Source: Azospirillum brasilense (GTDB lineage Bacteria > Pseudomonadota > Alphaproteobacteria > Azospirillales > Azospirillaceae). From it: a stretch of DNA of 64,000 nucleotides. Below the pieces are notes generated by a model that was given only the letters and a program-made list of their open reading frames with translations, had not been told where the DNA came from and made no database searches. A program made the position numbers and the translations under genes. Below, one piece after another: positions 15,790-64,000 of the stretch (positions are counted from its first letter, which is position 1; each line of letters opens with the position of its first letter). The stretch lies in contig NZ_CP059451.1 of assembly GCF_022023855.1 (NCBI RefSeq), positions 558,001 through 622,000 of the forward strand, in the 5' to 3' direction.

Positions 15790-17541
15790 TTATGGGGTGA
15801 CGGTGGGAGGTGGGGAGCGCCCGCCACGGCCCGCTTGCCGTTTCCAAGCCTCCTCGTAGAAGCGGCGCATCGACGCCGCTCCCGCATCGGAGGAGGCGAA
15901 TGACCAATAGCCGATCTGGAAGGCGAGATAGCAGGGAAGATGGAAGGCCACCAGCCGCTTTGATGCACCCACTGCGCCGCACAGCCGGTCGGCTTCCGCC
16001 CCCGGAAGGCCGAATTCGACGATGGCCCCCGCCACGTCCCAAGCGATGTCCTGGCATCCGATCAGGTCATGCGCGTCGGCATGATCGAGCGAGTCGGTCT
16101 TCAGCAACCGGCCGTCGGTGGTGCGCAGCCACTCCCAAATGTGAAGGCGGTTGTCGGTGACGACGCGCCGGCCCTCGGCGTTCAACTCCCTCAGTATGTC
16201 CGGCGTCCAGCGATCCAAGAAGACGGTCGCGGCGGTGCCAAGCGCTTCGCCGATGTTCACGCGCGCCATCGCCAGCAGGTCCGGAAGGCTGGCGCCCGTG
16301 TCACGCTCCGCCGGAAAGCGTTGGGCGCGGAACAGGAGATAGTCGGCCAAGCGCTCCAGAGACATGGTGGAGGGCGGTTGCGCGCCGTCCAACCAACGCT
16401 CCGCCAGGAAGCCATGACGGAGTGCCATGGGTTCCGTCGTGAAACCCGCCTGATGCAACGCGCGGGCCCGGTCCAGCTTGGCCTCGCCCAGGCGTCCGAG
16501 GCCGGCGAATTTCAAAAGCCAGGAGCCGGAGATGGTGCGCAACAGGAACTTGCGGCGCTCCTGCTGCGCATGGACCGGCGGCCAGTCCGCCGCATCCGCC
16601 GCAATATCCGCCGACGCCGTCCGCCATGCGCTGCCTGACAGATCGCGCAACGGCGCGACCGCAGGGCCGAGCGTGTCCTCGAACCAGCACTGCAACGGCG
16701 GCACCGGGCCATGCGCAACATGCACCAGTTCATCGAAGACGATCACCGGACGCACCGCCTCGGCCCAGCGGCGGCGGTGCCGGTCGGATGAGCGCGGCCC
16801 CGAATCACCGCCATGGCTTGGAAGGAACACAATCCGCCGGGGCGGCACGCCCGCCTCCTCCAACCAATCGGCGACGGCGCCGAACGAACTGCCGGACAGA
16901 CCCGGCCCTTCATCGACGATCACATAGGACGCGCCCGCGTCGGCCAGCAGGGCGGCCCGCTGGCGGGCCGACACGCGGACGGCGCGTTGGAACGGATGAC
17001 CGATCGGACGCAGAGTGACCGGAGGCGCAGCGTCCAGCGCAACCGCCGCCATCGCCGCCAGCCCGGTTCCGATGCTGCGCAGGCCAATCACGACGACCGG
17101 AGCGGGCAGATCCGGCGGAAGCCGGGCCGCAGCCTCCAGATAGGCTTCCGGATAGAGGCCATAGAAGGCATAGCCTTCGGGCCGGCGTATCCGCACGGTT
17201 TCGGGCAAAGGTTGCGCCGACAACGTCTCCAGTTCAGCCGCCAGCGCGCAAGCGCCCGGCTGCGGCTCGCCGCGCCAGGACCGGGCGACGGCGCGGGCCA
17301 GGTCCATCACGACCGCCATCGCCGCGTCGCGGCAAGGGGTGCAATCGTCCTCCCCCAGCGCGGTGAATTCCGCGTCCGCGAGGCCCTGCGCGAGTTCCGC
17401 CGCCTCGATGAACAGGGACACCAGCAGGGCATGACGGATCAGCCCGCCAGGCTTGGCGGCGGCTGTAGGACAGGCGGCGGCGATCTGCGCCACGACGACG
17501 CGTGGGTCCTCAAGACGATCGCGATCTCCGTAAACCAGCAT
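15790..17541 (-). CDS. Phosphoribosyltransferase-like / kinase-like two-part protein
   Basis: A 583-residue protein of no family I can name with confidence. The N-terminal half has a Rossmann-like phosphoribosyltransferase look: VVVIGLRSIGTGLAAM (150-165), then VIVDEGPGLSGSSFGAVADW (207-226), which resembles a PRPP-binding loop (hydrophobic strand, two acidic residues, then a Gly/Ser turn). The C-terminal half (from about 335) resembles an aminoglycoside-phosphotransferase-type fold: a conserved LLKFAGLGRLGE start, VTDNRLHIWEWLRTTDGRLL and DLIGCQDIAWDVAGAIVEFG, which mimics the APH catalytic/metal segment. It is the last gene of the minus-strand operon, 44 bases after the glycosidase. It may attach or phosphorylate a ribosyl or cyclitol unit of the cluster product (inference). 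Confidence 0.6.
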   Translation of the reverse strand: MLVYGDRDRLEDPRVVVAQIAAACPTAAAKPGGLIRHALLVSLFIEAAELAQGLADAEFTALGEDDCTPCRDAAMAVVMDLARAVARSWRGEPQPGACALAAELETLSAQPLPETVRIRRPEGYAFYGLYPEAYLEAAARLPPDLPAPVVVIGLRSIGTGLAAMAAVALDAAPPVTLRPIGHPFQRAVRVSARQRAALLADAGASYVIVDEGPGLSGSSFGAVADWLEEAGVPPRRIVFLPSHGGDSGPRSSDRHRRRWAEAVRPVIVFDELVHVAHGPVPPLQCWFEDTLGPAVAPLRDLSGSAWRTASADIAADAADWPPVHAQQERRKFLLRTISGSWLLKFAGLGRLGEAKLDRARALHQAGFTTEPMALRHGFLAERWLDGAQPPSTMSLERLADYLLFRAQRFPAERDTGASLPDLLAMARVNIGEALGTAATVFLDRWTPDILRELNAEGRRVVTDNRLHIWEWLRTTDGRLLKTDSLDHADAHDLIGCQDIAWDVAGAIVEFGLPGAEADRLCGAVGASKRLVAFHLPCYLAFQIGYWSFASSDAGAASMRRFYEEAWKRQAGRGGRSPPPTVTP

Positions 17542-17585
17542 GGTTCAACCGCTCAACGTGGCGAGGTGTCTTGGTCTACCGTCTC

Positions 17586-18512
17586 CTATTCCATCGCCAG
17601 CAGGGGGGACGGCGCTACCGGAGCGGTGCTGGCGTAGCGGCGGACCATGGCGGCGCAAAAATCCGCGAACTCCTCGGCGACGTGGGGCGGGCTGGTGTGG
17701 TGTGGTTCGATTCCACGATGCTCGGGCGTGAAGCAAAAGGTGATGGTGACATCGAAATCGGCCAGCGCTTCCATCTGATAGTCGAACCAGGCGAGCGCGT
17801 TCGGCCGGAAGCTGTCGGCCCAGGACAGGCCGGTGCGCAGGTGCCGGACGCCCAGCCGCTTCATCCAGGACACCGCATCGTTCAGCCGGTGATCCTCGAA
17901 GTGAAACCATTGGCAAATTCCCATCTCGGCCGCATAGGGCGCGTAGGCGTCGAGCGCCGGCTTGGGCGTACCGTCCGCCCGCAGCAGCCCCATATGGAAA
18001 TGACGGTAGTAGGAGGAACCCTCCGCCTCCTTGTGGCGCGTCGTCGCCTCCCAAGCGCTGGGCAGGTCATAGAGGCTGTACCAGTGAATGCGCGGAACCC
18101 GGCCGATCAGCAGCTCCGCGGTGCGGGTGACGCCCCAGGCCTGCACCTCCTCGGCGCCGAAGGACGAAACGCCGGCCTCCGTCACCCAGATGGGCTTGCC
18201 GGTGACGGCGCGGATTTCCTCGATTTTCTCCGGCCACTCGTGGATCTGCCAGAGATTCCAGTCGAGCGGAAAGCCATGCACCGCAACCACGTCCACATGG
18301 TCCAGCGCGCCGCGCTCGTCCAGGCGGCGGATGAAGGAGGGATCGATGGGCGAGATGCCACCCAGCACACGCGTGAGCGCACTGTTCTCCGCCCGGATCG
18401 CCTGCCCGGCCAGGATCGTCATGCAGGCGAACCGATCCCATTCCGGATCGAGATCGGGATTCCAGTGGGACTTGTTGTTGGGCTCATTCCAGATCTTGGC
18501 GGCTTCGATCAT
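17586..18512 (-). CDS. Beta-xylosidase-like glycoside hydrolase (clan-A type, apparently circularly permuted)
   Basis: A 308-residue protein of GH39/GH5-like character. It starts almost at once with MIEAAKIWNEPNNKSHW; Glu10 in NEP would be the acid/base. VVAVHGFPLDW follows, then IWVTEAGVSSFG with Glu112 as the probable nucleophile, then RIHWYSLYD. The segments that normally come before NEP in the barrel (LGVRHLRTGLSWAD near 221, VTITFCFTPEHRG near 260, EEFADFCAAMVRRY near 285) come at the C-terminus instead. There is no signal peptide, so it is cytoplasmic. The ATG overlaps the methyltransferase stop (ATGA). It may trim or transglycosylate the cluster's product. The fold call is good; the substrate is unknown. 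Confidence 0.75.
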   Translation of the reverse strand: MIEAAKIWNEPNNKSHWNPDLDPEWDRFACMTILAGQAIRAENSALTRVLGGISPIDPSFIRRLDERGALDHVDVVAVHGFPLDWNLWQIHEWPEKIEEIRAVTGKPIWVTEAGVSSFGAEEVQAWGVTRTAELLIGRVPRIHWYSLYDLPSAWEATTRHKEAEGSSYYRHFHMGLLRADGTPKPALDAYAPYAAEMGICQWFHFEDHRLNDAVSWMKRLGVRHLRTGLSWADSFRPNALAWFDYQMEALADFDVTITFCFTPEHRGIEPHHTSPPHVAEEFADFCAAMVRRYASTAPVAPSPLLAME

Positions 18513-19324
18513 CCCTGGTTTCCCGTCTTGGCGTGGTTTTCCAGTGCCGGTCCGGCGGATGGTGCGGCGGAGGACGGCAGGGCGGGATAGACGGCGCCCG
18601 CCGCCGTCGGCCGTGCTGCGCGGCGGCAGACATAGACCTCCTGCTCCGGATGCTCGACGACCCGAAAGCCGGCGCTGCGCAGCATGGCCTCGGCGCAGGC
18701 GGCGTTCGGGACCCACCAGTTTGTCCAGTCGCCGGAATATTGATGTTCGATGAAATGCAGCTTCGGATAGCCGGGCGCGTTGAAATGGTCCTGCTGGCGG
18801 AAGTCGTAATCGATGCCCACCGGCTCGACCGTCTCGGAGCCGCGCTGCATGGATTGGAAGATCATCAGGTCGCGGGCGGCATGCTCGTGGATCAGGTCGA
18901 GAGCCAGCAACGGGTGGCGCAGATGGTAAAGCACCCCCATGAACAGGACGACGTCGAACCGCTCACCCAGCCGCGCCAGATCGTAAACAGACAGCTTGCG
19001 GAATTCGATGTCCTGGCGGGTCACTTCGGCGGCGAAGCGCGCCTGTGCGAGATAACGGTCGTCGAAGTCGATCCCCACCACCCGCTCGGCGCCGCGCCGC
19101 TTCATCTCGATGGAGTAGAAGCCACCGTTGCAGCCGATGTCGAGCACCGTCAGGCCGCTCAGATCCTGCGGGACCGCATGGGCGAACCGCCGCCACTTCA
19201 CGTTCGGGTAGTCGTGAAGGAAGTGGTCGGGGGCGGTGCTGACGCCGTTCAGATCGATGTTGTGGAACCAGTCCCCCAGCGCGGCGACCCGGGCGCGGAT
19301 CTGGTCGGTCGTCAGATTCGTCAT
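18509..19324 (-). CDS. Class I SAM-dependent methyltransferase
   Basis: A 271-residue Rossmann methyltransferase. Motif I is VLDIGCNGGFYSIEM (about 57-71), motif II GIDFDDRYLAQA, and the post-motif region is FDVVLFMGVLYHLRHP. The second half (HFNAPGYPKLHFIEHQYSGD, WTNWWVPNAACAEAMLRSAG) resembles tRNA-uridine CmoB-like and small-molecule O-methyltransferases. The Pro/Ala-rich tail after about 240 looks disordered. The start at 19324 overlaps the phosphatase stop (ATGA), and its own stop overlaps the glycosidase start in the same way, so it is embedded in a translationally coupled operon. A hydroxyl on a cyclitol or sugar is a plausible target (inference). Confidence 0.85.
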   Translation of the reverse strand: MTNLTTDQIRARVAALGDWFHNIDLNGVSTAPDHFLHDYPNVKWRRFAHAVPQDLSGLTVLDIGCNGGFYSIEMKRRGAERVVGIDFDDRYLAQARFAAEVTRQDIEFRKLSVYDLARLGERFDVVLFMGVLYHLRHPLLALDLIHEHAARDLMIFQSMQRGSETVEPVGIDYDFRQQDHFNAPGYPKLHFIEHQYSGDWTNWWVPNAACAEAMLRSAGFRVVEHPEQEVYVCRRAARPTAAGAVYPALPSSAAPSAGPALENHAKTGNQG

Positions 19325-19929
19325 TCCGCCGCCTCGTTGATGCTGTGGACCTTCAGGCCCCATTCCCCGGCGATCAGCACGCTGCGGGACGCCGGAGCAA
19401 TCTCGAACCGGGCGTGGAAATCCACGGAAAGCCCCAGGGCGTGGGACAGCGCCGCCTTGATGACGTCAGCGTGGCTGACCAGCGCCACGGTCCGGCCGGC
19501 GTACCGGCGGCGCAGCCGCTCGATGCAGCGCGTCATCCGTACCTGAACCTCCGTCATCGTTTCGCCCCCAGGCGGGCGGGCGTGCGACCGCGCGCTGTTC
19601 CACACATTCCAAGCCGGGTCGCCGCGCAGTTTCTCGAAGCGCATGCCGGCCCAGGCGCCGAGATCAAGCTCGTTGAGATCCTCCTCCACCTCCACGGGCA
19701 AGGCCTGTGACTCGGCGATCGCCGCCGCCGTTTCCACGGCACGCTCCAACGGGCTGGACAGCACGGCGGCGAACCGGTGCCGCGCCAATGCAACGGCCAG
19801 CGCGTCGGCCTCGCGCCGGCCGGCCTCGCTGAGCGTCACACCGGGCATGCGTCCGCACAACACGGAGCCCAACCGGTCGTGCGACGCGTGACGCAGCAGG
19901 ACCAGGATCGTTTCCACGCAGCCGCTCAC
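19321..19929 (-). CDS. Histidine phosphatase (phosphoglycerate mutase-like)
   Basis: A 202-residue member of the histidine phosphatase superfamily. The catalytic RHG-type motif is LLRHASHD, with the phospho-accepting His at 14. Supporting residues are [16 protein letters not shown] (the second Arg) and VALVSHADV near 155 (the second catalytic His), with ELDLGAWAG as the acid region. The start is GTG and overlaps the stop of the inositol-phosphate synthase gene (GTGA). Its position directly after that gene suggests dephosphorylation of the inositol phosphate or a derivative. The family also includes CobC and sugar-phosphatases, so the substrate is inferred from context only. Confidence 0.85.
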
Positions 19930-21029
19930 GCGCGAAAGCGCGGGCCGTCCACCGCCTCGCCGGCGATGAAGCGCAGCGTGCGCTCGCGCGCTTCATGGTC
20001 GGTGAACTGCTCGGGGGGCGATTTCATGAAGTAGCTCGACGGTCCGATCAGCGGCCCGGCCATCTTCCGGTCCAGCGCCAGCTTGGCGCAGCGCACCGCG
20101 TCGATCACGATGCCGGCGGAGTTCGGACTGTCCCAGACCTCCAGTTTGAGTTCCACACTCAGGGGCACACCCCCGAAGGCGGTGCCCTCCAGCCGGATGT
20201 GCGCCCATTTCCGATCGGTCAGCCAGGGCACGTGATCGCTGGGGCCAATATGGACGTCGTCCGCGTCGAGCGGCACATCCAGTTGGCTGGTGACGGCGCG
20301 GGTCTTCGAAATTTTTTTCGATTCCAGGCGTTCACGTTCCAGCATGTTCTTGAAGTCGGTGTTGCCGCCGAAGTTCAGCTGATAGGTGTGGTCGAGCCGG
20401 ACGCCGCGCTCGCGGAACAGGTTCGCCAGCGTGCGGTGGATGATGGTGGCGCCCATCTGGCTCTTGATATCATCGCCGATGACCGGCAGACCGCGTTGTT
20501 CGAACCGCTTCGCCCACTCCGGGTCGGAGGCTATGAAAACCGGGATGCAGTTGACGAAGGCGCAGCCGGCCTCCAGCGCCTGCTCGGCATAAAACTCCGT
20601 GGCCCTCTGCGAACCGACCGGCAGATAAGACACCAGGATATCGGTGCCTGAGCGGCGCAGGGAATCGGCGATGGCAACCGGCGCCTCCTCCGACTCCTCG
20701 ATGTCACCGGCCAGATAACGGCCGATGCCGTCCAGTGTCGGACCGCGCTCCACTTGTACCCCCGAAGCACGCGGGGTCGAGAAGCGGCAGGTGTTGTTCG
20801 GAGGGGCAAAGATGGCGTCGGACAAGTCCCGCCCGACCTTCGCGGCGCTTACATCGAAGGCGGCGGACATTTCGATGTCGCTGACCCGATAGCCACCGAG
20901 ATCGAGAGTCATCAGCCCGGGCGGCGGCTCATTAGCTTGAGCATCGGCATAATAGCTTACACCTTGCACGAAGGATGAAGCGCAATTTCCGACACCGGCA
21001 ACCGCCACCCGCAGCTTTTTCCCAGTCAC
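19926..21029 (-). CDS. Inositol-3-phosphate synthase
   Basis: A 367-residue NAD-dependent enzyme that converts glucose 6-phosphate to inositol 3-phosphate (EC 5.5.1.4). The Rossmann start [17 protein letters not shown] is typical of the short bacterial/archaeal form. The signature [19 protein letters not shown] (about 183-201), with catalytic Lys, and [11 protein letters not shown] are strongly conserved in the family. The later segments [14 protein letters not shown] and [18 protein letters not shown] also match. The start is GTG behind GAGGAG, and it is the first gene of a five-gene minus-strand operon. Its presence is the main clue that the cluster builds a cyclitol-containing product. Confidence 0.93.
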
Positions 21030-21341
21030 GGGATTCTCCTCATCCTGAAAATTTCCTTAATGGACCAGAATGATATTTGTATCTTGGAATAATAATTGCT
21101 GGAAGATCGTCCAATCTGACCACGCCTTTTGGGTAAGGTGTCGAAAATCAAACGGCGGTGTTAACATTGACGCGACCATGCTTCTTTTCACGAAGCGAAC
21201 ATGACGATTTCCCACGTATGTAAGTGAGAATTTGCATTACTTTAAAAATAAGAATCATGGGTATTTTTATCAATTTTATACATAACCAACGCAACCGGAA
21301 ATAGCAATCACAAACATCACCATCCATCAGCGGAGGGGCTC
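21030..21341. promoter_or_regulatory. Divergent AT-rich promoter region of the glycan cluster
   Basis: These 312 bases separate the two divergent operons (inositol-phosphate synthase leftward, epimerase rightward). They are markedly AT-rich against GC-rich surroundings, especially 21060-21120 and 21225-21300. No single pair of promoter hexamers stands out and no good palindromic operator was found. Shared regulation of both operons from here is inferred from the divergent layout. Confidence 0.6.
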
Positions 21342-22454
21342 GTGGGAGAATCCGTTCTTGTCACCGGTGGCGCCGGTTTCATCGGCCGCCACGTCGCCAG
21401 GGCACTCCTCGCCCGCGGCGACCGGGTTCGGGTTCTCGACAGTCTGATCGCGCAAGTCCATCCCACTCGGACGCGGCCCGACGAACTGGACCCGGACGTC
21501 GAATTGCTGATTGGGGACATACGCGACGAGGCTATGGTCGGCCGGGCGCTGGAGGGAGTGGATTCGGTGATCCACCTCGCCGCCGAGGTCGGTGTCGGCC
21601 AGAGCATGTACGCGGTGGGCCGCTACACCTCGGTGAACGACCATGGGACGGCCGTGCTCTTCCAGCGGTTGATCGACCGACCGGTCCGCCGGGTGGTGGT
21701 CGCCTCCTCGATGAGCATCTACGGCGAGGGGCTGTACCGGACCGCCGACGGCACGCCGATGGAGGATGTGGTGCGCGGCGCGCGCAATCCCGACGGTTCC
21801 TGGGACCCGCGGGATTCCGACGGACGGCCGCTGATCCCCGTCCCCACGCCGGAGAGCAAGCGCCCAACCCTGAGGTCCGTCTACGCCATCGGCAAATACG
21901 TGCAGGAGCGGCTGACTCTGACGCTCACCGCCCAATACGGGATGGAAGGGGCGGCGTTGCGGCTTTGGAACGTCTACGGCCCCGGGCAGGCGCTGTCGAA
22001 CCCCTACACTGGGGTGCTGGCGATCTTCGCCTCGCGCATCGCCAACGGTCAGCGGCCGATGATCTTCGAGGATGGCCGTCAGCGGCGCGACTTCGTGCAT
22101 GTCGGCGATGTGGCGCGCGCTTTCCTGCTGGCGCTCGACCAGCCAGCCGTCAACGGCGGAGTCTTCAACATCGGGTCCGGCGAGGACCGCACCGTGGAGG
22201 AGGTGGCGTGGCTCCAGGCCGCCTCGATGGGCCGGCCAGACCTGACGCCGGAGATCACCGGCCAAGCCCGCGCCGGCGACATCCGCCACAACGTCCCCGA
22301 CCTGAGCAAGGCGCAAACGGTCCTGAACTACGAACCGCGGCAGGATTTCGCCGATGGGCTGGCCGAACTCGCCGAATGGGTTGCCCGGCAGGAGGCGCAG
22401 GACCATGTCGCCGAGGCCCGGAGCGAACTCGAAGCGCGGGGGCTGGTGGCATGA
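21342..22454 (+). CDS. NAD-dependent sugar-nucleotide epimerase/dehydratase
   Basis: A 370-residue extended short-chain dehydrogenase. The cofactor motif VLVTGGAGFIGRHVA gives GGAGFIG at about 9-15. VIHLAAEVGVGQSMY, VVVASSMSIYGEG and the catalytic SVYAIGKYVQE (Tyr-x-x-x-Lys) follow, then LRLWNVYGPGQ and RDFVHVGDVARAF. These are GalE/RmlB-type features: oxidation at C4 followed by epimerisation or dehydration of an NDP-sugar. The start is GTG after CGGAGGGG. It is the first gene of the rightward operon and probably supplies the activated sugar for the four glycosyltransferases downstream. Confidence 0.9.
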   Translation: MGESVLVTGGAGFIGRHVARALLARGDRVRVLDSLIAQVHPTRTRPDELDPDVELLIGDIRDEAMVGRALEGVDSVIHLAAEVGVGQSMYAVGRYTSVNDHGTAVLFQRLIDRPVRRVVVASSMSIYGEGLYRTADGTPMEDVVRGARNPDGSWDPRDSDGRPLIPVPTPESKRPTLRSVYAIGKYVQERLTLTLTAQYGMEGAALRLWNVYGPGQALSNPYTGVLAIFASRIANGQRPMIFEDGRQRRDFVHVGDVARAFLLALDQPAVNGGVFNIGSGEDRTVEEVAWLQAASMGRPDLTPEITGQARAGDIRHNVPDLSKAQTVLNYEPRQDFADGLAELAEWVARQEAQDHVAEARSELEARGLVA

Positions 22455-22491
22455 ACCGCCGGTCCGGACCGGCCTTGGTGGAGGCGGCGTG

Positions 22492-23820
22492 ATGCGTGTG
22501 GCGTTGGTCAACCCGGCCTGGACCTTCGCGCACAGCATCTATTTCGGCTGCCGCGAGCCGCATCTGCCCCTTGAACTGGGCTACGGCAAGGCGCTGCTGG
22601 AGCAGGCTGGACACGAGGTCCTGCTGCTCGATGGGCCGTTGACGGGATTGTCGAACGGCGAACTGGCGGATCGGGTGGCCGGCTTCGCACCCGGCATGAC
22701 CGTGGTGACGACCGCGCCGACCTACCTGTTCTGGCGTTGTGCCCCGCCGGAGCTGCGCATCCCCCGTGATTTCCTGCTGGCGCTGGATGGACGCGGCGGC
22801 CGGACCGTCGCGGTGGGGCCGCATGGATCGACCACCCCCGGTGCAGCCCTGGACAAGCTGGGCGTGGACGTTGTCGTGCGGGGCGAATGCGAGGAGATCG
22901 TGAGACGGCTTGCCGACCGGCTGGATTCAGGACAGCCAGGGTTGGACGGCGTTCCAGCGCTGGCCTTCCGCCGCGGCGGCGGAACCGTCCTTACCGGCGG
23001 CGGAACCGTCCTTACCGGCGGCCCGCACACCGGCCGCTTCGTCGATCTGCCGGCGCTGTCGTGGCCCGCCGAATGGCTGAACCGCCACCCCCACCATCAC
23101 CACCGCTACGGCACCGAACCGATCGGTGCGGGGGCCGAGGTCGAGGCTTCACGCGGTTGCCCCTACACCTGTTCCTTCTGCGCCAAGATCGACTTCCGCG
23201 ATCAGTACCGCCGCCGCGGCACCGCCATCGTGCTGGAGGAGATCGACCGGCTGACCGCCGCCGGCGTGCGCTACGTCTATTTCATCGACGAGATCTTCCT
23301 GCCCCGCCGCGACCTGTTGGAAGCGCTGGTGGAGCGGCCGGTCGAGTTTGGCATCCAGACCCGCATCGACCTGTGGAAACCCGATCTGCTGGATCTCCTG
23401 GGGGCCGCCGGCTGCGTGTCGATCGAGGCCGGGGTGGAAAGCCTGACCGAGGAGGGTCGCGCGGCGCTCGACAAGAACTGCCGCATGAGCACCGACGCAC
23501 TGGCCGACCGCCTGATCCACGCCCGGCGCAGCGTGCCCTTCGTCCAGGCCAACCTGATCGCCATGGCCGGCGACGACGCCGGGCTCGTCGCGCGATGGCG
23601 GGAGAGGCTGCACGGTGCCGGCGTCTGGGCCAACGATCCGGTGCCGCTCTACCCCTACCCCGCCTCGCCCGATTACCGCCGCCTGTGGGGAGAACCGGAC
23701 GACCGGGCATGGGAAAGGGCGCACGAGCACTATCTGCGCCAATTCGCGCGACTGAGCGACATTCAGGAGGAGCAGCCCCTGCCCTTGCATAAGCTGGAGG
23801 CCGCATGCGGTTGCCGGTGA
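22492..23820 (+). CDS. B12-binding domain radical SAM protein
   Basis: A 442-residue enzyme. Residues 1-150 form a cobalamin-binding-like Rossmann domain (MRVALVNPAW, ELGYGKALLEQAGHEVLLLD, VAVGPHGSTTPGAALDKLGV), without a clear DxHxxG motif. Next comes the radical SAM core with the 4Fe-4S motif C223-x3-C227-x2-C230 (SRGCPYTCSFC) and a FIDEIFLP strand. VSIEAGVESLTEEGRAAL is the usual core ending. From memory, a family of this type is catalogued as part of a conserved neighbourhood called the rhizo-twelve system; this could not be checked here. The start is ATG after GGAGG. A 21-bp tandem duplication lies in the linker. Its stop region overlaps the GT4 gene by 16 bases. The reaction (methylation or rearrangement) is unknown. 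Confidence 0.85.
   Translation: MRVALVNPAWTFAHSIYFGCREPHLPLELGYGKALLEQAGHEVLLLDGPLTGLSNGELADRVAGFAPGMTVVTTAPTYLFWRCAPPELRIPRDFLLALDGRGGRTVAVGPHGSTTPGAALDKLGVDVVVRGECEEIVRRLADRLDSGQPGLDGVPALAFRRGGGTVLTGGGTVLTGGPHTGRFVDLPALSWPAEWLNRHPHHHHRYGTEPIGAGAEVEASRGCPYTCSFCAKIDFRDQYRRRGTAIVLEEIDRLTAAGVRYVYFIDEIFLPRRDLLEALVERPVEFGIQTRIDLWKPDLLDLLGAAGCVSIEAGVESLTEEGRAALDKNCRMSTDALADRLIHARRSVPFVQANLIAMAGDDAGLVARWRERLHGAGVWANDPVPLYPYPASPDYRRLWGEPDDRAWERAHEHYLRQFARLSDIQEEQPLPLHKLEAACGCR
22981..23022 (+). repeat. 21-bp in-frame tandem duplication
   Basis: Two exact copies of a 21-base unit (22981-23001 and 23002-23022) add seven residues (GTVLTGG) between the B12-binding domain and the Fe-S motif. The reading frame is kept. 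Confidence 0.9.
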
Positions 23821-24956
23821 CGCCCCCGGCAGCCCCCGCGCATCCAGCCCCCGCGCATCTGCTGATGACGGCGGACAGCGTGGGCGGAGTGTGGACCTAC
23901 GCGCTCGACCTCGCGCAGGAACTGGCGGCAGGCGGCCTGCGCGTTACGCTGGCGGTGCTTGGGCCGTCACCGCAGGATGACCAGACCGCGGCGGCGCGCG
24001 CCATCCCCGGCCTGGAACTGATCGACACCGGCCTCCCGCTGGACTGGATGGCGGAGGACCCGGCCGCGATCCGGCGCGGCGCCGAAGCGCTGGGAGCGCT
24101 CGCTCGGCGGTTGGAGGTGGATCTCGTCCACCTCAACAGCCCGGCCCTGGCGGCGGACGCCGGATTCACGGTTCCGGTCGTGGGGGTCTGCCATTCCTGT
24201 CTGGCGACGTGGTGGGCCACCCTGCGCGGCGGCCCCCTGCCGGGCGACTTTCTCTGGCGGATCGAGGTTCTGGCGCGGGGCTACCGGGCCTGCGACGCGC
24301 TGGCGGCGCCGAGCGCCGCCTTCGCGCAGGCCACCGCCGCCGCCTACGGTTTGCCGCCACCGGTCGTGGTGCGCAACGGGCGCCGTCCTCCAGGCGGTGA
24401 GCCGTGCGGACGGGAGCGTTTCGTCTTCACCGCCGGACGCTTGTGGGACGATGGAAAGAACATCGCAACGCTGGACGCGGCGGCAGCGCTGCTGAAAGTG
24501 CCGGTGGTCGCCGCCGGCTCGCTGGAAGGTCCGGGCGGGAATCGCCGGACCCTGCGTCACGCCGCGGCGCTCGGACGCCTGGATACGGCATCGGTCGCGG
24601 CGTGGCTGGCGCGGGCACCCGTCTTCGCTTCCGCCGCGCTCTACGAGCCGTTCGGCCTGACGGTGCTTGAAGCCGCGCAGGCCGGCTGTGCGCTGGTGCT
24701 GTCGGACATCGCGACCTTCCGCGAGCTGTGGGACGGCGCCGCACTCTTCGTGGAGCCGAGGGACAGCGCAGCCCTCGCCGCCGCGATCCGCCGCCTGCTG
24801 GACGATCCGCGGAAGGCCGGGCGCCTCGGCGAGGCGGCGCGGCTCAGGGCCGGGCGATACGGCATGGAGTCGATGGCCTCCGGCATGCGCAGTCTCTACC
24901 GCAGCGTCCTGGAGCGTCACACCCCCACCCCCTCCCGCAAGGAGGCCGTTGCGTGA
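23805..24956 (+). CDS. Glycosyltransferase family 4 protein
   Basis: A 383-residue GT-B glycosyltransferase. The N-terminal domain starts at LLMTADSVGGVWTYALDLAQ, with the Gly-Gly-V loop typical of GT4. The C-terminal nucleotide-sugar domain has FVFTAGRLWDDGKNIATLDA and the donor-binding EPFGLTVLEAAQAG (the E-x7-E motif of retaining GT4 enzymes). It overlaps the radical SAM gene by 16 bases and the next gene by GTGA, so it is translationally coupled on both sides. No membrane segment, so it acts in the cytoplasm. Donor and acceptor are unknown. Confidence 0.9.
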   Translation: MRLPVTPPAAPAHPAPAHLLMTADSVGGVWTYALDLAQELAAGGLRVTLAVLGPSPQDDQTAAARAIPGLELIDTGLPLDWMAEDPAAIRRGAEALGALARRLEVDLVHLNSPALAADAGFTVPVVGVCHSCLATWWATLRGGPLPGDFLWRIEVLARGYRACDALAAPSAAFAQATAAAYGLPPPVVVRNGRRPPGGEPCGRERFVFTAGRLWDDGKNIATLDAAAALLKVPVVAAGSLEGPGGNRRTLRHAAALGRLDTASVAAWLARAPVFASAALYEPFGLTVLEAAQAGCALVLSDIATFRELWDGAALFVEPRDSAALAAAIRRLLDDPRKAGRLGEAARLRAGRYGMESMASGMRSLYRSVLERHTPTPSRKEAVA

Positions 24957-26077
24957 AGATCGTCTATTTCACCCATTCTCTGGCGTCCTGCTGGAACCAC
25001 GGCAACGCCCATTTCCTGCGCGGCGTCCTGCGGGAGCTGATCATCCTTGGCCATGAGGTCCGCGTCTATGAACCCGAGGGCGCATGGAGCCTGCGGAACC
25101 TGCTGGCCGATCATGGCGAAGCGGGGCTGCTGCCCTACCGGACCGCCTATCCGGAGCTGACCTCGCTGACCTTCACGGCCGACGCCGACGCGGCGGCGCT
25201 GTGCGACGAGGCCGATCTGGTCATCATGCATGAATGGAACGACCCGGCTCTGGTCGCGGCGGTGGGCCGGGCACGGGCGCAGGGCGGTCGCTTTCTCCTG
25301 CTGTTCCACGACACGCACCATCGCGCGGTCAGTGATCCGAAGGCCATCTCCGCCTTCGATCTCTCCGGCTACGACGGCGTCCTGGCCTTCGGCGAAACTC
25401 TGGCCGCCGTGTACCGGCACTGGGGCTGGAAGGATCGGGTCTTCGTCTGGCACGAAGCCGCCGACATCCGGCTGTTCCACCCGCCGTCCGGAGCGGAGCC
25501 GCGCAGCGGAACGGTGTGGATCGGCAATTGGGGCGATGGCGAGCGGACGAAGGAGCTGGGGAGCTTCCTGTTCGCTCCCGCCCGCGCCGCGGGTCTGCCT
25601 CTGGACGTCTATGGCGTGCGCTACCCCGCGGAAGCCCTGGCGACGCTGAAGCGGCACGGCATCGCCTACAAGGGCTGGCTGCCCAACGTCCGCGCCCCCG
25701 CGACCTTCGCCCGCCATCGGGTCACCGTCCATGTGCCGCGCCGTTTCTACGTCGAATCCCTGCCAGGCATCCCGACCATCCGCGTGTTCGAGGCGCTGGC
25801 CTGCGGCATCCCATTGGTCACCGCGCCGTGGAGCGATTGCGAAGGCCTGTTCCGACCGGGAACGGATTTCCTGGTCGCCCGCGACGGCGCCCATATGACC
25901 GCCCACCTGCGCGCCTTGGACAGCGACGCCGACCTCCGCGCGGCGTTGGTCCGCAACGGCTTGGAAACGATCCGCGCCCGCCACACCTGCGCCCACCGTG
26001 CCAGTGAGCTGCTCGCCATCGCCGCCGCTCTGGCTGGCACGCCCACCCCCTCTTCAATGCTGGAGCCTGTCCGATGA
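24953..26077 (+). CDS. CgeB-like glycosyltransferase (first of three)
   Basis: A 374-residue protein with GTG start overlapping the GT4 stop (GTGA). The beginning, KIVYFTHSLASCWNHGNAHF, and LRGVLRELIILGHEVRVYEP are typical of CgeB/DUF3880-type GT-B enzymes. The C-terminal domain has FYVESLPGIPTIRVFEALAC followed by GIPLVTAPW, the donor-binding loop. It shares its layout with the next two genes, which suggests ancient duplication. CgeB proteins are linked to spore-coat glycosylation in Bacillus, but the bacterial family is broader. Role here: adding a sugar to the cluster product (inference). Confidence 0.85.
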   Translation: MKIVYFTHSLASCWNHGNAHFLRGVLRELIILGHEVRVYEPEGAWSLRNLLADHGEAGLLPYRTAYPELTSLTFTADADAAALCDEADLVIMHEWNDPALVAAVGRARAQGGRFLLLFHDTHHRAVSDPKAISAFDLSGYDGVLAFGETLAAVYRHWGWKDRVFVWHEAADIRLFHPPSGAEPRSGTVWIGNWGDGERTKELGSFLFAPARAAGLPLDVYGVRYPAEALATLKRHGIAYKGWLPNVRAPATFARHRVTVHVPRRFYVESLPGIPTIRVFEALACGIPLVTAPWSDCEGLFRPGTDFLVARDGAHMTAHLRALDSDADLRAALVRNGLETIRARHTCAHRASELLAIAAALAGTPTPSSMLEPVR

Positions 26078-27168
26078 AGATGGCCTTCTACGGTTCGAGC
26101 CTGCTTTCCTCCTACTGGAACGGCGCCGCCACCTACTATCGCGGCATGCTGAGCGAACTCGCCAAGCGGGGTTGGAACGTCACCTTCTACGAACCGGACG
26201 CCTTCGACCGCCAGAAGCACCGAGACATCGAGCCGCCCGGCTGGGCCAGCGTCGTCGTGTACGAGGCCACCGCCGAGGCCTGCCGCACCGTGATCGCCCG
26301 CGCCGCCGAGGCCGACGTGGTGGTGAAGGCGAACGGCGTCGGCGTCTTCGACGACGAGTTGCTCAACGGCGTGATGGATGCCGCCGGTCCCCACGCTCTG
26401 CGTGTCTATTGGGATGTCGACGCCCCCGCCACCCTGGCCGAACTACGGCAGGCGCCGGGCCATCCCCTGCGCCGTCGGCTGCCTCAAATCGACGCCGTGC
26501 TGACCTACGGCGGCGGCCCGCCGGTGGTAGCGGCCTACGAGGCGATGGGCGCCCGCCTGTGCCGCCCCATCTACAACGCTCTGGATCCGGCGACACACCA
26601 CCCGGCACCGCCCCAACCGCGCTTCGCCGCCGATCTCAACTTTCTCGGCAACCGACTGCCCGACCGCGAGGAGCGTGTGGAGCGCTTCTTCCTGGAGCCC
26701 GCCGCGCACAACCCGCAGGGGCGCTACATCATCGGCGGCAGCGGCTGGGAGACGAAGGGGCTGCCGGCCAACGTCACCCACATCGGCCATGTCGGCACCG
26801 CCGACCACAATGCCTTCAACAGCTCGGCGCTGGCGGTTCTGAACATCGCCCGCGACAGCATGGCCGAGGTCGGCTTCTCGCCCGCCACACGGGTGTTCGA
26901 GGCTGCCGGAGCGGCGGCCTGCCTGATCACCGACGCTTGGACGGGGGTCGAACTGTTCCTCACCCCGAACGAGGAGATCCTGGTCGCCCGCGATGGCCAG
27001 GACGTGACCAATCATCTGCGCGCCCTCACCCCGGCCCGCGCCCGCGCCATCGGCGATGCCGCGCGACGTCGCGCCCTTGCGGAACACACCTACGCACGGC
27101 GCGGCGCGGAGGTCGACGTGTTGCTGCGCGACGCCCTGGCGGCCCGGCGGGAAAGGAGCGCGGCGTGA
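26074..27168 (+). CDS. CgeB-like glycosyltransferase (second of three)
   Basis: A 364-residue GT-B protein, coupled to its upstream neighbour by ATGA and to the next by GTGA. It starts KMAFYGSSLLSSYWNGAATY with YRGMLSELAKRGWNVTFYEP, and the C-terminal half has LNFLGNRLPDREERVERFFL, SALAVLNIARDSMAEVGFSP and ATRVFEAAGAAACLITDAW. The segment LRVYWDVDAPATLAEL is shared in type with the third copy (FYDIDTPVTLAKL), so these two are probably the closer pair. Cytoplasmic; donor and acceptor are unknown. Confidence 0.85.
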   Translation: MKMAFYGSSLLSSYWNGAATYYRGMLSELAKRGWNVTFYEPDAFDRQKHRDIEPPGWASVVVYEATAEACRTVIARAAEADVVVKANGVGVFDDELLNGVMDAAGPHALRVYWDVDAPATLAELRQAPGHPLRRRLPQIDAVLTYGGGPPVVAAYEAMGARLCRPIYNALDPATHHPAPPQPRFAADLNFLGNRLPDREERVERFFLEPAAHNPQGRYIIGGSGWETKGLPANVTHIGHVGTADHNAFNSSALAVLNIARDSMAEVGFSPATRVFEAAGAAACLITDAWTGVELFLTPNEEILVARDGQDVTNHLRALTPARARAIGDAARRRALAEHTYARRGAEVDVLLRDALAARRERSAA

Positions 27169-28262
27169 AGCTCGTCGTCCTGGGGCTGAGCCTGTCCTCT
27201 TCCTGGGGCAACGGCCACGCCACCACCTTCCGCGCCCTTCTCAAGGCGTTCGCCGCACGCGGCCACGACATCCTGTTCCTGGAGCGCGACGTTCCCTGGT
27301 ACGCGCAGAATCGCGATCTCGCCGATCCCGGCTATTGCCGGCTGGCCTTCTACGAGGATCTCCCTGGCTTGCGACGGTGGGCCGGAACGGTCGAGGAGGC
27401 CGACGCGGTGCTCGTCGGCTCCTACGTGCCCGATGGTGTCGCCGTCGGCCGCTGGGCGCAGGAAACCGCGCGGGGGATCGTCGCCTTCTACGACATCGAC
27501 ACGCCGGTGACCCTAGCGAAGCTGGAACGCGGCGACGAGGAGTACCTCACCCCTGCCCTCATTCCCGGCTATGATGTGTATTTCTCCTTCACGGGCGGAC
27601 CGACGCTGGAGCGGCTGGAATCCCGCTACGGCTCTCCGGCAGCGCGCGCGCTCCATTGCTCCGTGGATGCCGACGCCTACGCGCCCCTGCCAACGCCCAA
27701 GCGCTGGGATCTGAGCTATCTCGGCACCTACAGCCCCGACCGGCAACCGACGCTGGAGCGGTTGCTGCTGGAGCCGGCCCGGCGTGCGCCGTCGCTGCGC
27801 TTCGTCGTCGCCGGTCCGCAATACCCCGAAGGGATCGCCTGGCCCGGAAATGTCGAACGTCGGCATCATATTCCTCCAACCGAGCATCCCGCCTTCTATG
27901 CGGCCAGCCGTTTCACCTTGAACGTGACGCGCGAGGACATGATCCGCGCCGGCTACAGCCCCAGCATCCGGCTGTTCGAAGCCGCCGCCTGCGCCACTCC
28001 GATCATCTCCGACTGTTGGGACGGCCTCGACGCGCTGCTGGAGCCAAACCGCGAGATCATCCTCGCCCACACCTCCGGCGATGTTCTGCACGCCCTTCAC
28101 CAACTGGACGAAAACACCCGCCAAGCGATGGGTTCACGGGCGCGGCGGCGAATCCTGGAACACCACACCGCCGCGCATCGCGCGGAAACGTTGGAGCGGG
28201 AACTGGAAGGCGCGATGCGAAGGACCGGCCGGAACACCAGTGCGGTACTGCCTTTTCAATAA
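27165..28262 (+). CDS. CgeB-like glycosyltransferase (third of three)
   Basis: A 365-residue GT-B protein with a GTG start overlapping the previous stop. It starts KLVVLGLSLSSSWGNGHATT, with FRALLKAFAARGHDILFLER and VAFYDIDTPVTLAKLERGDE. The donor half has LSYLGTYSPDRQPTLERLLL, FTLNVTREDMIRAGYSPSIR and LFEAAACATPIISDCWDG. It is the last gene of the rightward operon. The gene ends 18 bases from the convergent DUF1003 gene, with no obvious terminator between. Confidence 0.87.
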   Translation: MKLVVLGLSLSSSWGNGHATTFRALLKAFAARGHDILFLERDVPWYAQNRDLADPGYCRLAFYEDLPGLRRWAGTVEEADAVLVGSYVPDGVAVGRWAQETARGIVAFYDIDTPVTLAKLERGDEEYLTPALIPGYDVYFSFTGGPTLERLESRYGSPAARALHCSVDADAYAPLPTPKRWDLSYLGTYSPDRQPTLERLLLEPARRAPSLRFVVAGPQYPEGIAWPGNVERRHHIPPTEHPAFYAASRFTLNVTREDMIRAGYSPSIRLFEAAACATPIISDCWDGLDALLEPNREIILAHTSGDVLHALHQLDENTRQAMGSRARRRILEHHTAAHRAETLERELEGAMRRTGRNTSAVLPFQ

Positions 28263-32847: not shown

Positions 32848-33487
32848 TCACGCTGCGGCGGTTGCGGCCTGCCAGTCGGCCCTGGCCTGCGCCCGGAAGG
32901 TGCGCAGGGTGCGGCGGCCGACCAGGCGGCGCTGAGGGTTGAAGCAGTTGTAGACGGCGGCGTGCAGGGAGACGAAGCGCTGGGCGGACCCCGGCGATTT
33001 GAAGCGCTGGATTTTCCGTTCGCGTCGCCGTAGTGGCTGGTGCGAGACCTCGGCGCGGTTGTTCTGGCGGCGGCCTTGCTCATGGCGCGCCGTCAGGCCA
33101 ATCTCCCGGAACGCCGCCCCATAGGAGCGCAACTGGTCGGTGGTCACCTGGGTGGGCGCGAAGCCGTGCTTCTTGAGGATCGACTGCCCGCCACAGGTAC
33201 ATCAGCCGGCCACCAATCCGGATGATCATCTCACCCAAGTGCCAGCGCGGGCTGGGCTTCGGCCGGAGCCGCCGCAGGTTGCCGGCGATGGCCGGGCCAA
33301 ACTTCACGACCCAGCGCCGCACCGTCTCGTAGGACACGTTCACGCCGCGTTCCGCCAGCAGCTCCTCGACATCCCGGTAGCCCAGGGTGAACCGCAGATA
33401 GAGCCAGATCGCATGCCGGATGACGGCGGGCGGAAATTGATGGCGGGCATACAAGAGTGGCGACATCCGAGCAAGATAATGCCGCGA
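32848..33487 (-). pseudogene. IS6-family transposase with internal deletion
   Basis: The minus strand starts with YARHQFPPAVIRHAIWLYLR, then LGYRDVEELLAERGVNVSYE, TVRRWVVKFGPAIAGNLRRL and RLMYLWRAVD, the N-terminal half of an IS6 transposase. At about 33185 it jumps, with a frame change, to KKHGFAPTQVTTDQLRSYGA, FREIGLTARHEQGRRQNNRA and EVSHQPLRRRERKIQRFKSP, ending QAATAAA. Roughly 25 residues with part of the catalytic region are missing. The element sits inside an older IS5-type transposase gene. Confidence 0.85.
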
Positions 33488-33900
33488 GCCGTCATCAACA
33501 TCGTGGTCGGTCAGGGTCACCGCGAGGATCTGCCCGGTCACGGCAACCAGACCGACACGCAGCTTCTTCCACCCGCGGCGGCGCTGGGGCCCTTGCTTTT
33601 CGACCAACCATTTTCCGGGACCACACAGCTTCACGCCCGTGCTGTCGACCAGCAGCTCCACAGCGCCGCCCGAAGATACTGGCTCCGGTGGGAGGCCCAG
33701 GGTCTGGGCGCGGCGGCTGAAAGTGGAATGGTCCGGAACGGCAAAGTCCACGCCAACCAGCTGGACGATGGAGCCGACCAAGCCTTCGGTTTGGTGCAAC
33801 GGCCGCCGGACCACGGCGCGCAAGGTTCAAGGCCGTCGTGATCGCCAAGTCCGAGTAGAGGCGCTGCCCGCCGGGCGTGGACGCTATCGCGTTTTTCTCT
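33488..33900 (-). pseudogene. IS5-family (IS903-like) transposase fragment
   Basis: Reading leftward on the minus strand, one frame gives GGQRLYSDLAITTALNL. After a frameshift near 33836, another gives RAVVRRPLHQTEGLVGSIVQ, VDFAVPDHSTFSRRAQTLGL, VELLVDSTGVKLCGPGKWLV and VGLVAVTGQILAVTLTDHDV ending at DDGSR. This is the first half of an IS903-group transposase, including the first catalytic Asp (VDSTG). The rest is replaced by the IS6-type element. Confidence 0.8.
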
Positions 33901-54749: not shown

Positions 54750-54897
54750 GTCGTCCCCCTCGCTGATTGGGCGCGGATCGGGAAGGTCGGATGCGGGGAC
54801 GTGGTTGGCGCAGTCCACCAACCACGCCCGGTCGCCGGCGTGTTTCCCTGATGCGGCGGCTGAAGGATCGCCGGGAAAGGCGTCCGCTCAGCCCTTC

Positions 54898-55890
54898 TCA
54901 GGCCTGCTCAAGGAGCAGGGTGTTGCCCGAATCGCTCGGATTGCTTTTGAGCACGAAGCGGCTGACGCAGCCGAGATTGTCGGTGATGCTCCAGTGCAAA
55001 AGATTGTCGTAGAGCCCGCTGGAGGTGTCGGTGCGCAGATAGCGAACCCCCCGCATCATGTTGGCACCGACGCTGATGTTGATGTTGGTTGCCGGATCGA
55101 CGTTGGACGGCAGATGCCCGATGTCGCCCAGCGTCAGCGACGTCACATCGTGGTGCATCGCCATCCCCATGAAGAAATTGCTGTCATTCTTGGCATACGC
55201 CCACACCAGCTTGGGCGTGGCGTAGCCCTGTCCGCTAAAATAGTCGGACATGATTTTGAGATTGTTCGGAAGCGTCCAGTAATAGACGTCCACGTCGACG
55301 TACTTTCCCTTCGCATATTCGTAATTGTAAGGATCGTCGCGGCGCGCGGCCAGTTCGCTGACGCGAATGGCATAAGGACGCTGTGGGCAAATGGTGATCT
55401 TGGACTCGAAGCTCACATTGCCGTCATCGTAGTGCGTCGTATAGGTCTTGCCGTTGTCGAGCGTGATGCGCGCCATGAACTGGTAGTTCTGCAGCGGCGT
55501 GACCGACGTGCCGCAGCGGATGTAGCGCGTGATCGAATCCCAGGTCTGCGTCCGACTGGACGCCTCCCCATCGTTCAGCGAGCGGAGCGAGGCCGAGTAA
55601 CCCTGCCCCCGCAGTCCCGAATCATATTGATTCTTGCTCGTGTCGCACGACCATCCCGAGGGGAGGGGGGCATTGATGTCCGAAGAATACATGCACACGG
55701 TGATGCTGTTCTTCTCGCTCTGCGACAGCGGCACGGTGGTGTAGCTTCCGGTCGAGTCGTCGTAGACCTGTTTCTGCACATTGATTGCCACCGAGCACTG
55801 CTGGTTGCCATTCGCGTAGATCTGGTTCGTGTAGCCCTCGTTGGCCCCGATGACGGTGATGGTGAAATACTTGATCGAATACGTCTTCAT
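54898..55890 (-). CDS. Unrecognised protein upstream of the RHS gene (330 aa)
   Basis: I do not recognise the family. It is a 330-residue, polar, aromatic-rich, beta-type protein without signal peptide or membrane helix: KYFTITVIGANEGYTNQIYA at the start, AINVQKQVYDDSTGSYTTVP, VYYWTLPNNLKIMSDYFSGQ and MAMHHDVTSLTLGDIGHL later on. The few cysteines (CGTS, CPQRP, LGCVSRF) show no metal pattern. It has a good AAGAAGGA ribosome binding site. Base composition is visibly lower in GC than the PKS and NRPS, suggesting separate acquisition. Its place between an unknown gene and the RHS gene suggests a companion of the RHS protein (inference). Confidence 0.7.
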   Translation of the reverse strand: MKTYSIKYFTITVIGANEGYTNQIYANGNQQCSVAINVQKQVYDDSTGSYTTVPLSQSEKNSITVCMYSSDINAPLPSGWSCDTSKNQYDSGLRGQGYSASLRSLNDGEASSRTQTWDSITRYIRCGTSVTPLQNYQFMARITLDNGKTYTTHYDDGNVSFESKITICPQRPYAIRVSELAARRDDPYNYEYAKGKYVDVDVYYWTLPNNLKIMSDYFSGQGYATPKLVWAYAKNDSNFFMGMAMHHDVTSLTLGDIGHLPSNVDPATNINISVGANMMRGVRYLRTDTSSGLYDNLLHWSITDNLGCVSRFVLKSNPSDSGNTLLLEQA

Positions 55891-55907
55891 GAAACGAATC
55901 CTTCTTA

Positions 55908-56450: not shown

Positions 56451-56896
56451 CGCGCCTCTCCATCGTGTGATTGTTAGTGTTCTACACAGTATTACAAATG
56501 TGTTCGATGTCTTGACGTTTCCTATAATGAGCATAACTTTGATAATTATCCGTGCAAAGGCGGAATCTTTCCTGCCCGGATTCTTTTTTATTTCTTCAAT
56601 GTCTTTATTGAAACTTCTGAATACAACAGCATTCCCTGCGCACCGGATGCCGCAGTGCACCATTGGACTATCCACACTTGGCGCTTCACTTTTTCGTCCG
56701 GCATGTCACGTCTCGGCCGCCAACCCAGCTTCCTACCGCTCTCCATCCACAGCCGCCTCGACGGCCGGAGAGTCGTGAACCACACCCAATGGGGATCCAG
56801 GGAACATGTCGAGAGCGTCATGAAAGCGCCCGAGACACAGGCGCAGCTCAGGCAACTCGTGGGTTGCGCAAAATCGGCCGCACCGGAACCGTTGCT
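56451..56896. promoter_or_regulatory. AT-rich promoter region of the RHS-PKS operon
   Basis: About 450 bases between the esterase gene and the RHS-PKS operon, both on the minus strand. The part from 56460 to 56640 is strongly AT-rich and is the likely promoter of the operon. No operator palindrome or terminator for the esterase gene was identified, so some read-through from the NRPS operon is possible. Confidence 0.5.

Positions 56897-58558: not shown

Positions 58559-64000
<5,442 letters not shown>

Follow-up and report, generated by a model that had tools for sequence, protein, structure and literature searches.

A rhizo-twelve gene cluster of Azospirillum brasilense carries a circularly permuted glycosidase

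The window analysed here, a stretch of 64,000 nucleotides from Azospirillum brasilense (contig NZ_CP059451.1, positions 558,001 to 622,000), holds a divergent cluster of eleven genes at 15790–28262 that had been read as making a cyclitol-containing glycan or glycoside. We find that this cluster is a member of the catalogued, uncharacterised rhizo-twelve system, and that it belongs to the first of two editions of that system with a new structural twist: its stand-alone glycosidase is a circular permutant of a glycosidase that other clusters carry in fused form. The editions have a common core of one or more epimerases, a B12-radical S-adenosylmethionine (SAM) enzyme, a GT4 glycosyltransferase, three CgeB-type glycosyltransferases and a methyltransferase. 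Edition I, that of the window, adds to the core a pair formed by myo-inositol-phosphate synthase (MIPS) and a phosphatase, together with the stand-alone glycosidase; edition II lacks MIPS, and its glycosidase is fused to a sugar-nucleotide 2-epimerase.

Membership and gene content of the cluster

The radical SAM protein scored 694.4 bits against the curated model TIGR04295 (cut-off 400) and the methyltransferase 385.5 bits against TIGR04290 (cut-off 300). Among the matches listed, several of 120 homologues of the radical SAM protein bore the name "B12-binding domain/radical SAM domain protein of rhizo-twelve system". Database names and curated models thus agree with the link to rhizo-twelve that the original prediction had offered. 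The features of the cluster are as follows.

15790–17541, minus strand: phosphoribosyltransferase (PRTase)-like/small-molecule-kinase-like fusion, 583 amino acids (AlphaFold model, Foldseek, motif)
17586–18512, minus strand: circularly permuted glycosidase of the PslG/clan GH-A type, 308 amino acids (BLASTP, AlphaFold model, alignment)
17961–18512, minus strand: half 1 of the permuted glycosidase, canonical strands 4–8 with both catalytic Glu (model and BLASTP)
17628–17927, minus strand: half 2 of the permuted glycosidase, canonical strands 1–3, now C-terminal (model and BLASTP)
18509–19324, minus strand: SAM methyltransferase of the TIGR04290 family (385.5 bits, cut-off 300)
19321–19929, minus strand: phosphatase of the histidine phosphatase superfamily (PF00300, 164.6 bits)
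19926–21029, minus strand: MIPS (PF01658, 123.4 bits; TIGR03450, 529.7 bits, below the cut-off of 638)
21030–21341, no strand: divergent intergenic region of 312 bases (alignment of 10 intergenic regions, conserved short blocks)
21342–22454, plus strand: NAD-dependent nucleotide-sugar epimerase/dehydratase (PF01370, 170 bits; PDB match, 148.4 bits)
22492–23820, plus strand: B12-binding-domain radical SAM enzyme of the TIGR04295 family (694.4 bits, cut-off 400)
23805–24956, plus strand: GT4-type glycosyltransferase (PF13439, 69.4 bits; PF13692, 60.2 bits)
24953–26077, plus strand: CgeB-like glycosyltransferase 1 (PF13524, 125.1 bits, scanned inside the longer open reading frame 24728–26077)
26074–27168, plus strand: CgeB-like glycosyltransferase 2 (same family as CgeB-like 3 by clustering)
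27165–28262, plus strand: CgeB-like glycosyltransferase 3 (PF13524, 134.9 bits, scanned inside the longer open reading frame 25998–28262)

All eleven open reading frames were confirmed at the positions first predicted, diverging from the 312-base gap. The predicted functions were borne out by profiles, except that the PRTase/kinase-like protein had no Pfam or NCBIfam match and the glycosidase had only a Pfam match below the cut-off (PF11790, 18.8 bits against 21). The statement that nearly every junction is a 4-base overlap was somewhat strong: six of the nine same-strand junctions are of this kind, but one overlap spans 16 bases and two junctions are gaps of 44 and 37 bases. CgeB-like 2 had no PDB sequence relative at E 0.01 and is assigned by its clustering in one family with CgeB-like 3. 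In the divergent region, Azospirillum relatives share short conserved blocks, around ATATTTGTA, GGAAGATCGTC, CTTTTGG and GTGTTAA, which match no promoter class tried.

Co-inheritance was assessed in 240 evenly sampled alphaproteobacterial genomes, one of them that of the window (the even sample). The radical SAM protein was above its cut-off in 10 genomes and the methyltransferase in 11, with 10 genomes common to both (hypergeometric 8e-17, relatedness not corrected). In the genome with the methyltransferase only (G422), the CgeB1-2-3, methyltransferase and decarboxylase genes begin at a contig end, so its radical SAM gene may be cut off. Glycosidase matches at E 1e-20 occurred in 7 of the 240 genomes, every one of which had the radical SAM protein. 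Across 299 Pseudomonadota genomes, 7 had the radical SAM protein above its cut-off.

Gene content was compared in 80 named loci, of which 61 had more than 8 kb on both sides of the radical SAM gene and are referred to as full-flank loci. The relatives' genes came from a simple codon-usage gene caller, and their starts are approximate; clustering of stop-to-stop open reading frames was dropped, as it produced antisense families. GT4 and CgeB1 were present in all 61 full-flank loci, along with two or three genes of the CgeB2/3 type, and the window has the same conserved order of epimerase, radical SAM, GT4 and three CgeB genes. Counts below 61, which are partly flank effects, were 55 for at least two epimerases, 47 for MIPS, 44 each for UDP-glucuronate decarboxylase and the phosphatase, 36 for the methyltransferase, 24 for the permuted glycosidase, 21 for the PRTase/kinase gene, which is accessory, and 15 for a nucleotidyltransferase. 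MIPS accompanied the phosphatase in 44 of 44 loci, and three loci had MIPS without the phosphatase. Absence of conserved co-occurrence would have refuted the original prediction, but the genes occur together far more often than by chance: the linkage of radical SAM, methyltransferase and glycosidase, together with the gene order of the 61 loci, marks one conserved biosynthetic unit.

The relatives' sets exceed eleven genes. They add a second epimerase (the copy in locus L033 is nearest CDP-tyvelose 2-epimerase, 265 and 252 bits), a decarboxylase nearest UDP-glucuronic acid decarboxylase 1 (336–339 bits), a fourth CgeB-like glycosyltransferase and a nucleotidyltransferase. The window's locus lacks the second epimerase and the UDP-glucuronate decarboxylase, which are frequent rhizo-twelve features and are not documented as defining ones. 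The fullest set that we met lies on p195_1, a plasmid of Bradyrhizobium sp. 195 typed as conjugative, where 15 genes follow one another on the same strand: MIPS, phosphatase, glycosyltransferase, nucleotidyltransferase, methyltransferase, glycosidase, phosphopentomutase, two epimerases, radical SAM, GT4, three glycosyltransferases and decarboxylase. The phosphopentomutase-annotated metalloenzyme gene (L135, 10414–11619) lies within this operon between the glycosidase and epimerase genes; this gene, and the PRTase/kinase gene of other clusters, hint at pentose-phosphate chemistry. A protein family of about 90 amino acids (f9, e.g. L049, 7284–7556) was encoded near the cluster in 31 loci, many of them from Mesorhizobium.

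The system was found in Azospirillum, Methylobacterium, Mesorhizobium, kin of Roseomonas, Tistrella, Bradyrhizobium plasmids, and metagenome-assembled genomes of Myxococcales and Desulfarculales. Ten plasmid records matched it, two of them as remnants, and 2 of the 10 were typed conjugative. On plasmid ABSP7_p1 of Azospirillum brasilense Sp7, a radical SAM remnant (L134, 8965–9606) corresponded to query residues 40–279; none of the remaining ten cluster proteins had a match in the 18.6-kb Sp7 stretch, the rest of the Sp7 genome not having been searched. As that stretch keeps only the radical SAM remnant, the system can evidently be lost. In the window, a transposase (DDE) gene lies at 33080–33814, about 5 kb from the cluster, consistent with mobility. 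Literature searches over titles and the beginnings of abstracts gave no paper that uses the system's names or names its product and, among the matches listed, nothing about the cluster, its two editions or the permuted enzyme. In the parts available, PMC3164672, on Ramlibacter, mentions neither Rta_06 nor inositol, radical SAM or methyltransferase, and the subject of PMC12583986 is hopanoid enzymes.

The remaining enzymes were compared with characterised families. The CxxxCxxC motif is present in 86 of 86 radical SAM family members of at least 400 amino acids, the window's included. This protein's only sequence relatives in the PDB were AprD4 (32.4 bits), a TsrM-type tryptophan methyltransferase (C2; 30.8 bits) and TokK (24.7 bits); these scores lie far below that for membership, so their reactions are not transferable to the window's enzyme. 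The model for AprD4-type radical SAM diol-dehydratases (NF033070) scored 35 bits against a cut-off of 500, and the methyltransferase scored 74.5 bits against 275 for CmoB tRNA methyltransferase (TIGR00452). PDB matches of the epimerase were proteins of the epimerase/dehydratase family (best 148.4 bits), and 45 of 50 phosphatase family members had an RHA motif near the N-terminus. For the 583-residue protein, an AlphaFold model (pLDDT 86.8, pTM 0.89) had choline kinases as its best Foldseek matches, LicA first (E 1.3e-8, TM 0.54 on the target), which supports the kinase half. We take the N-terminal half to be a PRTase from its GPGLSGSS motif only, which occurs in 23 of 23 family members of at least 500 amino acids, the window's included.

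The permuted glycosidase

When the window's glycosidase was aligned by BLASTP to its unpermuted fused homologue in L080, residues 2–184 matched 112–292 (E 4.7e-27) and residues 196–295 matched 9–110 (E 5.5e-19). The swap recurred against the fused proteins of L069, L075 and L078, and three further permuted proteins showed it as well. Seven fused proteins were compared in all; L076 aligned over one half only, and the fused copies of L064 and L074 gave no match at E 1e-3, these three being decayed. Relative to the fused glycosidase, the stand-alone one is circularly permuted, a new finding that the original prediction had missed. It starts at the acid/base motif (MIEAAKIWNEPNN), like all 31 family members in the loci; in other clusters the glycosidase domain is in canonical order and fused to the N-terminus of the 2-epimerase.

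The AlphaFold model (pLDDT 81.8, pTM 0.84) has eight strands, of which the first is the NEP strand, and its residues 1–298 superpose on TIM barrels. Rather than following the canonical order from beta1 to beta8, the protein has strands 4–8 before strands 1–3. Glu10 and Glu112, in the NEP and TE motifs, are invariant in 25 aligned glycosidase proteins, as expected for a pair of catalytic Glu. The glycosidase start shares 4 bases with the end of the methyltransferase gene, and the 68 extra codons of open frame upstream of that start contained, when judged by eye, none of the missing strands. The closest solved glycosidase is PslG (PDB 4zn2/5bx9), which we take to be of a GH39-type clan GH-A family. 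The two share the NEP and TE motifs over a weak match (16.8 bits, query residues 3–188, E 0.027); in contrast to PslG, the window's protein has a rotated barrel that begins at canonical strand 4 and no hydrophobic N-terminus. Comparison with PslG by phmmer also hints at the permutation, half 1 matching at E 0.027 and half 2 insignificantly. Among the literature matches listed, again titles and the beginnings of abstracts, we met no circularly permuted glycosidase of GH39 or clan GH-A.

Two editions of the system

Thirteen fused proteins were aligned, of which 10 retain both catalytic Glu (L069, L075, L078, L080, L136, L137, L138, L141, L142 and L147; L075, L137 and L142 are close Tistrella-type copies). 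The other three have lost catalytic Glu, both in L064 and L076 and the acid/base in L074, and the genomes of these three also own a permuted glycosidase. We then classified 30 genomes, namely the 10 in the even sample that have the radical SAM protein and 20 picked from the 80 loci, mostly for a seemingly missing MIPS or glycosidase. The permuted form was present in 21, an intact fused form without a permuted one in 8, and neither in one (G358). Exactly one catalytically intact form was found in 28 of the 30 genomes, the others being G358, with none, and G484, which may have two. Permuted copies had both Glu in 17 of 17 genomes of the hand-picked set, as well as in G336, G431, G484 and the window; the stops reported for the permuted glycosidases of G529 and G532 are gene ends. 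Four genomes had a fused copy alongside a permuted one, and in three of them the fused copy was decayed. In the fourth, G484 (to which L077 belongs), a contig end truncates it: L166 3–1370 encodes a 2-epimerase fused to the end of the cut glycosidase domain, and the permuted glycosidase lies on another contig. Fused copies in G327 and G382 were missed by the glycosidase search at 1e-20 and found on fetching, so that search alone cannot exclude fused copies.

The form of the glycosidase went with the presence of MIPS, which was found in 19 of 21 permuted-form genomes versus 0 of 8 fused-form genomes (Fisher 1e-5, counting kin such as three Tistrella and several Mesorhizobium as independent). 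In 16 of 16 hand-picked genomes with both genes, the starts of MIPS and the permuted glycosidase were 1.7–4.4 kb apart on one contig. With the radical SAM gene itself, MIPS was only mildly linked in the even sample (4/10 versus 18/230; Fisher 0.008). A view limited to 10-kb neighbourhoods had shown many clusters without MIPS or glycosidase; whole-genome searches overturned it, recovering the permuted glycosidase in 17 of 20 genomes and MIPS in 16 of 20. The expectation of a cyclitol-containing product fits edition I but is not general, given that MIPS occurs in 4 of the 10 genomes with the radical SAM protein in the even sample and in none of the 8 intact-fused genomes. As MIPS is absent from edition II, inositol is a unit of one edition and not the defining unit.

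On a tree of 47 radical SAM rows, 6 changes are needed to account for the intact-fused label, 4 of them forced by well-supported branches, and the relics stood at 3 separate places; rows labelled as other include rows of unknown state, among them L077 with its cut fused copy. The simplest story, whose direction we infer, is that the permuted enzyme, travelling with MIPS, took over one catalytic job repeatedly.

The predicted product and its alternatives

We favour the reading that the edition-I rhizo-twelve island assembles one soluble hetero-oligosaccharide in the cytosol, O-methylated, modified by the radical SAM enzyme and, in the window's edition, containing inositol; we put its probability at about 0.5. 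The expectation of a soluble rather than membrane-bound pathway held, in that none of the eleven proteins has a membrane-like stretch by hydropathy, by which signal peptides were also judged (maximum 19-residue mean 1.86, versus 2.97 in a control ion channel). Profiles and hydropathy likewise agreed with the predicted absence of export genes, no export or membrane gene being recognised in the cluster, and no exporter or polymerase was recognised among the partner genes.

From the enzyme families, a pathway can be proposed in which the epimerase or epimerases, with the UDP-glucuronate decarboxylase in relatives, would supply nucleotide sugars. MIPS would make inositol phosphate, and the phosphatase encoded by the overlapping gene would dephosphorylate inositol phosphate or a glycosyl-inositol phosphate; its strict linkage to MIPS makes removal of the phosphate that MIPS introduces its most likely task. 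GT4 and the three CgeB-like glycosyltransferases would build a short chain, which the TIGR04290 enzyme may O-methylate and the B12-radical SAM enzyme may C-methylate or change by other radical chemistry. The permuted glycosidase would trim or transfer a residue inside the cell, as suggested by its conserved catalytic residues and by an N-terminus that is not hydrophobic. The sugar, the linkage and the radical reaction cannot be told from sequence. A functional likeness, compared by description and not by sequence, is offered by the mycobacterial methylglucose and methylmannose polysaccharide pathways, which are cytosolic and make O-methylated oligosaccharides with a dedicated glycosyltransferase, methyltransferase and hydrolase. 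We know of no MIPS, radical SAM or CgeB-like glycosyltransferase in those pathways. Methylglucose lipopolysaccharide (MGLP) is called intracellular in the part available of PMC4555173.

The product may protect against stress or drying, which we regard as a lead only. Among 132 flanking genes of 33 loci we found topoisomerase IB (4), Ku (2), DUF4142 (2), DUF1003 (2) and alpha-amylase-domain (2) genes; treZ stands beside the Bradyrhizobium cluster and a manganese catalase gene beside a Geminicoccaceae plasmid cluster. Next to the window's cluster stands a DUF1003 gene, with DUF2382 genes about 5 kb off. The parts available of PMC6599016 give topoisomerase IB and Ku as EcfG-dependent genes of Sphingomonas melonis and place glycosyltransferases among EcfG targets, with nothing tying these to a rhizo-twelve cluster. 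For a promoter search we used a stricter form (GGAAC-N16/17-CGTT) of the consensus GAAC-N16,17-C/GGTT given in the available part of PMC4814048. A bolder version of the favoured reading, which we hold tentatively and consider rather doubtful, would make the product an undescribed class of cytosolic, O-methylated, radical-SAM-modified oligosaccharide for stress or desiccation survival, in two editions, one with inositol; its essential intracellular glycosidase step would have been taken over repeatedly by a circular permutant riding with MIPS and displacing the epimerase-fused domain, leaving dead relics.

Several points weigh against the favoured reading. Product, enzyme activities, expression, chemistry and role are all putative, and exporters encoded outside the cluster might act on the product. 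The window's locus lacks the relatives' second epimerase, UDP-glucuronate decarboxylase, fourth CgeB-like glycosyltransferase and nucleotidyltransferase. The genome comprises 8 contigs and 7.39 Mb, and the window lies on contig 3 (863 kb). Homologues stand only elsewhere in the genome, so that the window's pathway may differ: a 2-epimerase (51%) and a decarboxylase (57%) on contig 4, in a region that by eye reads like polysaccharide genes; a further decarboxylase match on contig 6 (55%, two stops reported in the match); a homologue of the fourth CgeB-like glycosyltransferase on contig 1 (55%; L132, 7521–10117), beside another glycosyltransferase gene, the pair perhaps being displaced parts of the system; and only a weak nucleotidyltransferase match (28%). 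The division into editions has its own exceptions: the cut fused copy of G484 shows the nucleophile Glu, its acid/base part not being visible, and this genome may hold two intact forms; in G431 and G532 the permuted glycosidase was found and MIPS was not; and in G358, which is 82% complete, MIPS was found and the glycosidase was not. As to stress, the flanking genes were counted without a control set. Exact promoter sites stood upstream of 6/81 core operons, 3/53 MIPS genes and 6/440 internal gene starts, the latter all in loci of Roseomonas kin; a looser pattern gave 12/81 core operons, 4/53 MIPS genes, 0/24 PRTase/kinase genes and 8/257 internal starts. The window's divergent gap had no site with fewer than two mismatches. 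These counts suggest some enrichment of general stress promoters that is weak, and absent in the window.

The cluster might instead make or decorate a surface or exported glycan, such as an exopolysaccharide side chain, a lipopolysaccharide part or a glycolipid head group, with flippases or transporters encoded elsewhere. Four glycosyltransferases, an epimerase and the relatives' UDP-xylose-type sugar supply are typical of such glycans, the contig 4 region of the window's genome resembles polysaccharide genes by eye, and PslG serves an exopolysaccharide system. We nevertheless think this unlikely, as the eleven proteins have no membrane-like stretch, the glycosidase has no hydrophobic N-terminus, MIPS would be unusual there to our general knowledge, and no Wzx, Wzy or ABC exporter appeared in the 25 commonest Pfam families of the 132 flanking genes (33 loci), with 114 rarer families outside this view. 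The patchy distribution (10/240) and plasmid locations would also suit a specialised metabolite, an aminoglycoside-like or other bioactive pseudo-oligosaccharide exported to act on other organisms; MIPS, B12-radical SAM enzymes and glycosyltransferases occur in aminoglycoside-type pathways, and the radical SAM enzyme has a weak likeness to apramycin AprD4 (32.4 bits). This appears improbable to us: the AprD4 model scored 35 bits against 500, and those recurrent families that were annotated included no recognisable gene for an aminotransferase, an exporter or self-resistance.

A mycothiol-like low-molecular-weight cofactor built on glycosyl-inositol would account for MIPS being nearest the mycothiol Ino1 model (TIGR03450) and the phosphatase nearest TIGR03848, which we take to be a mycothiol-associated family. 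Mycothiol biosynthesis shares MIPS, GT4, a phosphatase and, in some relatives, a PIG-L deacetylase (2 of the 132 flanking genes) with rhizo-twelve. The window's proteins, however, miss the curated cut-offs of all three mycothiol-linked models (Ino1 529.7/638, TIGR03848 156.9/203.85, MshA 34.7/462.5 bits), MIPS is missing from edition II, and a cysteine ligase was not noticed, no search aimed at one having been made. We judge such a cofactor very improbable.

Outside the cluster, the window holds a nonribosomal peptide synthetase (NRPS)/polyketide synthase (PKS) cluster at 44452–63999, with an EntF-like NRPS (1274 bits, below the cut-off), a type I PKS and an enterochelin-esterase-like protein, pointing to a putative siderophore-type product.

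The rhizo-twelve system merits attention as a widespread set of very tightly co-inherited genes for which we found no paper naming a product. Its two editions offer a direct genetic way of telling which genes make the cyclitol part. The two glycosidase forms amount to a natural experiment in circular permutation: one catalytic domain serves one pathway, in some lineages in canonical order and fused, in others rotated and free, with decayed copies where the two forms meet.

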